Source: an uncultured bacterium
GTDB lineage: Bacteria; Bacillota; Clostridia; Lachnospirales; Lachnospiraceae
Length of the DNA: 64,000 nucleotides
Reading direction: 5' to 3'
Assembly (NCBI GenBank): GCA_947574055.1
Contig: CANPIC010000004.1
Coordinates: 1-64,000, forward strand
This document shows, piece after piece, positions 47,110-47,464 of the stretch; positions within the stretch are counted from its first letter, which is position 1, and each line of letters begins with the position of its first letter. Made by a program: the position numbers and the translations under genes. Below the pieces are notes generated by a model, which had not been told where the DNA came from, made no database searches, and saw only the letters and a list, made by a program, of their open reading frames with translations.

Positions 47110-47226
47110 TGACGATGCGAAGGACTCGAACCCCCGATCTGTACCCGGGCTCCAGCTCTGCTGTCCGTACCACCGGCATGATACGATAATTGGCAGGTAC
47201 CATGTTTCCTTTACACTACATCGCCA
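47110..47226 (-). ncRNA. tRNA-like RNA 3 with expanded anticodon-arm domain
   Basis: Acceptor TGGCGATG/CATCGTCA; D-arm-like TAGTGTAAAGGAAACAT; stem GTACC/GGTAC enclosing ~50 nt; T-arm GGGGGTTCGAGTCCTTC. Confidence 0.78.
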
Positions 47227-47230
47227 TATG

Positions 47231-47344
47231 AGTGAGGGGCGGAATCGAACCGCCGACAACGCCATTATAAGTGGTTGGATGATTGCTGCAGGAATCACGG
47301 CCATGATTCCTTTTTTTCGTGCTCTACCCCTGAGCTACCTCACT
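47231..47344 (-). ncRNA. tRNA-like RNA 2 with expanded anticodon-arm domain (tRNA-Ile(UAU)-like if 43 nt removed)
   Basis: Acceptor AGTGAGG/CCTCACT; D arm GCTCAGGGGTAGAGC; T arm GGCGGTTCGATTCCGCC; insertion with GGAATCATGGCCGTGATTCC hairpin. Confidence 0.82.
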
Positions 47345-47347
47345 CAT

Positions 47348-47464
47348 CCGGCGGGCAGGATTCGAACCTGCAAACATGGCGGTCCTTTATGCATACTCTG
47401 CTGTCAGTTCCACAAACATGAAACATTTGGCTACCGCTGCGTCTCCCATTTCCGCCACCACCGG
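47348..47464 (-). ncRNA. tRNA-like RNA 1 with expanded anticodon-arm domain
   Basis: Acceptor CCGGTGG/CCGCCGG; D arm GCGGAAATGGGAGACGC; stem GCGGT/ACCGC enclosing 49 nt; T arm GCAGGTTCGAATCCTGC. Confidence 0.8.

Follow-up and report, generated by a model that had tools for sequence, protein, structure and literature searches.

What kind of RNA is encoded where three tRNA-like units, each with a long domain in place of an anticodon arm, stand in tandem before a protein-coding gene? The question is raised by the minus strand of a 64,000-nt stretch of contig CANPIC010000004.1 from the Lachnospiraceae assembly GCA_947574055.1 of a gut bacterium (hereafter, the window). Conservation of Y RNAs and Ro60 extends from phages to humans. 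An earlier note on this DNA had suggested a class of tRNA mimics beside a Ro60-like gene that is related to, and distinct from, the bacterial Y RNA YrlA, a suggestion now backed by the predicted Ro60 fold of the neighbouring protein, a covarying family of units, and a match to known Y RNAs after rotation. Computation established the anatomy of the units, their covariation, their linkage to Ro60-like genes, their homology after rotation, and the predicted Ro60 fold of the neighbour; the best explanation is that the units are, very probably, the Y RNAs of the adjacent DUF2828-type Ro60 in the form of circularly permuted YrlA-type tRNA mimics. They are neither decay products of tRNAs nor plain YrlA.

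Layout of the array and tRNA-like body of its units

On the minus strand, a promoter-like site that matches 10 of 12 consensus positions is followed by the three units and then by a gene encoding DUF2828 and DUF7788 domains (Table 1). The units are separated by 2 nt (units 1 and 2) and 4 nt (units 2 and 3), and 198 nt lie between the end of unit 3 and the start of the Ro60-like gene. A covariance model places the three tRNA-like units where the earlier note had seen them.

Table 1. Features of the array on the minus strand of the window; covariance-model scores of units 1 to 3 are those of members of the model's own training set.
Feature	Position (strand)	Description	Basis
Putative sigma-70-like promoter	47500..47528 (-)	TTGAAT-17 nt-TATAAT, 35 nt 5' of unit 1	consensus match only
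Candidate tRNA-like Y RNA, unit 1	47347..47464 (-)	Leu-type D arm GGCGGAAATGGGAGACGC	covariance model, 77 bits, E 3.5e-13 (training-set member)
Unit 1 Y hairpin	47407..47424 (-)	GTTTCATGTTTGTGGAAC	
Unit 1 motif	47398..47404 (-)	ACAGCAG	
Unit 2 G-1	47345 (-)	paired with C73	
Candidate tRNA-like Y RNA, unit 2	47230..47344 (-)	TAGCTCA D arm	covariance model, 96.5 bits (training-set member)
Unit 2 Y hairpin	47291..47310 (-)	GGAATCATGGCCGTGATTCC	
Unit 2 motif	47283..47289 (-)	GCAGCAA	
Candidate tRNA-like Y RNA, unit 3	47110..47225 (-)	D arm TAGTGTAA	covariance model, 53.7 bits (training-set member)
Unit 3 Y hairpin	47167..47184 (-)	GTATCATGCCGGTGGTAC	
Unit 3 motif	47158..47164 (-)	ACAGCAG	
Possible decayed free-standing Y element	46928..46967 (-)	GTGATCC ... 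GGTCATG, directly 5' of the Ro60 start codon	
Ro60-like gene	45448..46911 (-)	DUF2828 + DUF7788 vWA, 487 aa	Pfam, AlphaFold2, Foldseek

The acceptor stems are CCGGTGG/CCGCCGG in unit 1 (including one G-U pair), (G)AGTGAGG/CCTCACT(C) in unit 2 (8 bp when G-1:C73 is counted), and GGCGATG/CATCGTC in unit 3. The D and T arms are tRNA-like in all three, with one extra T-stem pair in unit 3, and 49-56 nt occupy the place of the anticodon arm. The 7-bp acceptor, D arm, and T arm of a tRNA are thus present, while its 7-nt anticodon loop is absent. Positions that are invariant across the wider family described below include T8, A14, and the T-loop TTC-A, which together form the tRNA elbow. G-1 is present in 14 of the 14 family units with C73, giving an 8-bp acceptor as in tRNA-His, and this extra pair may steer RNase P or block charging.

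Standard tools respond to the units unevenly. The Rfam tRNA model scores unit 3 at 32.7 bits (cut-off 29 bits) with a 49-nt insert and unit 1 at 20.6 bits, under the cut-off; ARAGORN called none of the three as a tRNA and made no tmRNA call, and an Rfam search of the whole window at gathering thresholds found none of the three. Minimum free energy folding of single units against shuffles gave z-scores of -1.6, -3.2, and -1.7, which is weak evidence. The units lack an encoded CCA, as had been pointed out earlier; this absence is uninformative because all five ordinary tRNA genes checked in the same genome lack CCA as well.

A covarying family with a shared hairpin and ACAGCAA module

Homologues of the neighbouring gene came from three sources: 33 genomes out of 299 in the same bacterial family, 42 named-contig loci, and 14 viral contigs. 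A structural detector based on an acceptor stem, a T arm, and T8 was applied upstream of 64 DUF2828 homologues and gave 37 candidate units, compared with 0-2 in each shuffle; 186 kb of coding control sequence gave 2. After refinement the family comprised 50 units in 34 bacterial and viral loci that precede a DUF2828 gene, with 22 loci holding a single unit. A lack of homologous units near related genes in other genomes, which the earlier note had named as refuting its reading, is thus not what was observed. In these 50 units, acceptor stems are 99.4% paired versus 56% (maximum 65%) with shuffled partners, and Y hairpins 96% versus 62% when shuffled. An alignment of 45 units contains 23 pairs that are 97.8% paired, with changes on both sides in 20 of the 23 and a covariation score of 0.798 versus 0.209 for shuffled alignments. 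As an aside, a unit at 15548-15679 of locus L129 (genome G118), about 1.7 kb downstream of the DUF2828 gene, has a D loop seemingly interrupted by an insertion.

The position of the anticodon arm is taken by a module consisting of a hairpin, UCNUG-loop-RN'GA, followed by NN-ACAGCAA. UG directly follows the 5' strand of the hairpin in 46 of 50 units, and an exact ACAGCAA lies two nt after its 3' strand in 40 of 50. The N-N' pair covaries, being A-U in window-like loci, C-G in rumen loci, and U-A in distant loci. The hallmark of the units is this hairpin and ACAGCAA module rather than the 5-bp closing stem that had been pointed out in units 1 and 3; an anticodon-like stem of at least 5 pairs occurs in 44% of family units versus 29% in shuffles, a weak enrichment. 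The expanded domain is indeed shared among units, as had been claimed; what is conserved within it is the inner hairpin with ACAGCAA and not the 5-bp stem. The further claim of selection rather than decay agrees with covariation in every helix and with the single inner module. The idea that the units are tRNA pseudogenes in decay, remnants of a phage or a tRNA array, gains some colour from the tRNA arrays of related phages. It is nevertheless vanishingly improbable, being refuted by the covariation and at odds with the one shared module, its exact ACAGCAA in most units, and the wide distribution of the family.

In other Clostridia and in phages, the strands of the module also stand alone next to DUF2828 genes, in a free-standing form whose stem lies outermost. 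This form reads GUGACCC-UU-ACAGCAA ... GGGUCAUG. At the class level, free-standing elements were found in 13 of 17 loci recruited by the DUF2828 family with the source genome excluded, a count that includes some loci that do not extend far upstream; the corresponding pattern, AAAGRNRC-NN-ACAGCAA ... GYNYCUUG, had two matches in 47 kb of shuffled sequence. The free-standing elements in the leader of the window locus are without ACAGCAA. This holds for the possible decayed element directly before the Ro60 gene, which sits where intact elements sit in relatives; its reading as a decayed element is tentative because it folds no better than shuffles. The contact motif of Ro60 in known Y RNAs, including the YrlA consensus, is reportedly CGAA(N)G ... 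CUUG. Its possible counterparts here are AAAG...CUUG in distant DUF2828 loci and GUGA...UCAUG in the window, and the literal motif is not present in the window units or in the distant DUF2828 loci.

Some leaders show further arrangements. The free-standing elements of loci L033, L040, L057, and L063 carry hairpins that resemble intact anticodon arms (GACTCATAATC, GACTGTCAATC, GACTGTTAATC). At 2539-2640 of locus L131 and upstream of the gene in locus L020, a free-standing Y stem is wrapped around an almost entire tRNA whose parts keep their usual order, so that tRNA and Y module are nested in yet a third way.

These observations bear on two other readings. According to one, the units are tRNA genes with small introns that are spliced to functional tRNAs; the Rfam tRNA model does score many units as a tRNA whose anticodon arm holds an insert of 40-60 nt, and the cyanophage unit described below is annotated as a tRNA. 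Nevertheless, the anticodon-stem register is only weakly enriched, the standard 7-nt loop with U33 is absent from the window units and from others read by eye, and the supposed intron is one conserved module common to all units that also stands free as the outer stem of other RNAs; together with the linkage to Ro60-like genes, this makes splicing very unlikely. According to the other, the units and leader elements are mainly cis-regulatory and serve as a 5' untranslated region through which Ro60 adjusts its own production. In favour of this, the free-standing element of many relatives overlaps the Shine-Dalgarno region and ends 20-25 nt before the start codon; yet such a role needs no conserved tRNA-like ends or tertiary-fold nucleotides (T8, A14, G19, TTCRA), in some phage loci the elements lie downstream of the gene, and the leader element of the window is degenerate. 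A mainly regulatory role is thus improbable, if less so than splicing, and the reading as Y RNAs of the adjacent protein is preferred to both.

The Ro60-like neighbour and its linkage to the units

Pfam recognizes DUF2828 and DUF7788 in the neighbouring protein and returned no TROVE match for it, and a phmmer search with this protein against the PDB found no Ro60 by sequence. An AlphaFold2 model built from 37 homologues has a mean pLDDT of 91, and the ten best Foldseek matches of this predicted model in the PDB are all Ro60, Rsr, or TROVE proteins (E 4e-7 to 3e-5), with TM values of 0.62-0.63 against RNA-bound Ro60 (2i91). D293, S295, and S297 of the DxSxS metal site of the vWA domain are invariant in the 37 homologues. 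The neighbour is thus predicted to be a protein of the Ro60 fold, with a HEAT ring and a vWA domain. TROVE (PF05731) was not found in three genomes checked. RtcB was not found in the source genome (88% complete), so that this locus does not share the RNA-repair setting in which YrlA occurs.

Searching genomes with a covariance model, as the earlier note had proposed, recovered a unit above 50 bits in 12 of 33 DUF2828-positive versus 1 of 266 DUF2828-negative genomes of the family (Fisher p 5e-12), a count over 299 genomes in which some loci had also trained the model; hits under 50 bits were nearly all ordinary tRNAs of 71-75 nt. Because of this overlap with the training loci, a bait-free scan was added, in which two DNA patterns were run over viral contigs and yielded 128 readable loci. 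A real unit was present in 38 of them, 29 of which also had DUF2828, versus DUF2828 in none of the 90 loci without a unit; for the other nine units, no DUF2828 was found within the stretch of contig covered. Three of these nine (L173, L191, and L217) have the unit directly before a gene judged by eye to resemble the terminase large subunit. A separate orphan unit of the window type, at 8091-8206 of locus L128 (genome G131, contig C13; 101 bits), immediately precedes a pncA-like NAD-salvage gene cluster, and no DUF2828 or TROVE gene was found in that genome.

A search of 50,697 GenBank phage records found DUF2828 proteins in 709. Synechococcus phage B23 carries a unit of the window form (82.8 bits) annotated as 'tRNA-Undet-???'. 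In Listeria phage LP-125 (L164), three free-standing ACAGCAA elements (4165-4420) precede the DUF2828 gene, and RtcB and a putative RNA ligase are encoded downstream of it (7346-10500). The related Listeria phage CKA15 produces three extremely abundant non-coding RNAs less than 2 kb upstream of its DUF2828 gene, and its DUF2828 protein was found in virions (PMC12282133). A correspondence between these abundant RNAs and the free-standing elements was looked for and none was established.

The phage loci invite the alternative that the units are decoys or sensors for tRNA-cutting enzymes in phage-host conflict, with the tRNA body attracting anticodon or acceptor nucleases and Ro60 binding or recycling the product. 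Units and DUF2828 genes do occur inside phage tRNA clusters, the Listeria phage locus pairs them with RtcB and an RNA ligase, and a role as competitive inhibitor has been suggested for YrlA (PMC7790460). Against this, window-type units have no anticodon, the part that is usually targeted, and Salmonella YrlA was no substrate of the anticodon nuclease (PMC7790460). A decoy function is therefore rather unlikely, and Y RNAs bound by the adjacent Ro60-like protein remain the favoured reading.

Circular permutation, possible mechanism, and comparison with known systems

YrlA superposes on tRNA via circular permutation (PMC11472068), and its Rfam consensus has the Ro60 stem open and the acceptor closed. 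A model (R2) was therefore made from 28 bacterial units only, rotated in silico so that the hairpin was opened and the acceptor closed, and searched in eight phage loci. Beside DUF2828 genes it found elements in Enterococcus phage PEf771 (75.6 and 75.4 bits, E 4e-16), mycobacteriophage LeBron (58.7 bits), the Felix-O1-like phage UAB_Phi87 (49.1 bits), and Bacillus phage Thrax4 (43.2 bits), while its best match other than Y RNAs or window-type units reached about 29 bits. After rotation, whole-length identity is 70-73% with linkers included (in PEf771 GCCGT, GGTCG, and GAGCAACG); unrotated comparisons score below shuffled sequence. The PEf771 element scores 47.8 bits against Rfam YrlA.

Units in tandem could in principle be parsed in either of two registers, and pairing was used to decide between them. 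Among 13 tandem neighbours, acceptors are paired 100% within units versus 57% across them, and Y hairpins 96% within versus 54% across neighbours. A YrlA parse of the window itself gives 27.3 bits (cut-off 69). It joins the unit 1 T arm to the unit 2 D arm across the junction, an effect of the units standing in tandem, and was rejected given the pairing of acceptors within units. Since the rotated model finds phage Y RNAs, one of which also resembles YrlA, the window units are circular permutants of YrlA-type Y RNAs, a real and rotated form in which the tRNA ends are open and the presumed Ro60-binding stem is closed. The kinship with YrlA that had been proposed thus holds, and the exact relation, circular permutation, is what the proposal missed. 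The rotated form is common to bacteria and phages.

By analogy with known tRNA processing and Ro60-Y RNA-PNPase complexes (PMC8394870), the likeliest course of events can be outlined. A single transcript would start near 47490 and run through all units into the Ro60 gene, and RNase P and the tRNA 3'-end enzymes would free each unit as an RNA of 115-118 nt, perhaps CCA-tailed. The Ro60-like neighbour is probably bound by the hairpin and ACAGCAA module, which would dock on the Ro60 ring, and the tRNA-shaped body might tether a tRNA-handling partner, as PNPase is tethered in Deinococcus, or gate or decoy enzymes that act on tRNA. With the free ends moved from the Ro60 stem to the acceptor, housekeeping tRNA processing could mature many Y RNAs per array, the ends being made by tRNA enzymes instead of promoters and terminators. 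The permutation may have arisen when a YrlA-type gene was duplicated in tandem and the outer halves were then lost. A more speculative extension, to which only modest credence is given, is that the open acceptors allow the Y RNAs to be CCA-tailed and seen by the machinery of translation or tRNA decay, such as a tRNA synthetase, EF-Tu, or PNPase. True tRNA-like molecules with a Ro60-binding module in the anticodon's place would then bring Ro60 to tRNAs or ribosomes. The RNA of RNase P, the presumed processing enzyme, is encoded in the same window (bacterial class A, 36618-36270 on the minus strand, 302 bits), 10.5 kb from the units.

A Y RNA class that keeps its tRNA ends, and is in that sense unpermuted, together with a Ro60 is new relative to Rfam, to open-access papers, and to a survey from 2023 of RNAs permuted in nature, which mentions no Y RNA (PMC10085705). 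With it, DUF2828 proteins and their RNAs join the Ro60 field, and naturally permuted RNAs gain a class that could help reveal what Ro60-Y RNA machines do. In a molecule that is permuted with its parts kept, 'tRNA shape' and 'free Ro60 stem' come apart, and the free acceptor ends lend themselves to assays of CCA addition, aminoacylation, and RNase P cleavage.

Compared with known systems, the units are closest to YrlA (RF02553; Salmonella structure 6CU1), with which they share an adjoining Ro60-family gene and a tRNA-like set of D, T, and acceptor arms that carries, where the anticodon would be, a stem for Ro60 (presumed in the units). The order of parts differs, being Ro stem, T arm, closed acceptor, D arm, and Ro stem in YrlA versus open acceptor, D arm, closed Y hairpin, T arm, and acceptor in the window units, and the YrlA consensus is without ACAGCAA. 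Y RNAs of mycobacteriophages with Ro60-like genes are on record (Chen et al., 2014, as cited in PMC12282133). The phage Y RNAs of LeBron, PEf771, Phi87, and Thrax4 share the DUF2828-type Ro60 neighbour and the same grammar (strand A-NN-[A/G]CAGCAA ... strand B); they differ in placing the T arm before the D arm and in having a closed acceptor and an open Ro stem, whereas the window units and that of cyanophage B23 have open acceptors. From tRNA (RF00005), the units retain the acceptor, D arm, T arm, U8, A14, G19, and TTCRA, and they depart from it in the 49-56-nt domain that replaces the 7-nt anticodon loop. In tmRNA, tRNA-like ends flank an expanded inner part. The units resemble it in this respect, although they are far shorter and carry a different module, and the Rfam match to tmRNA covers 17 nt at chance level. 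Two of the features by which bacterial Y RNAs are generally recognized, an adjacent Ro60-family gene and a tRNA-like domain, are found at this locus.
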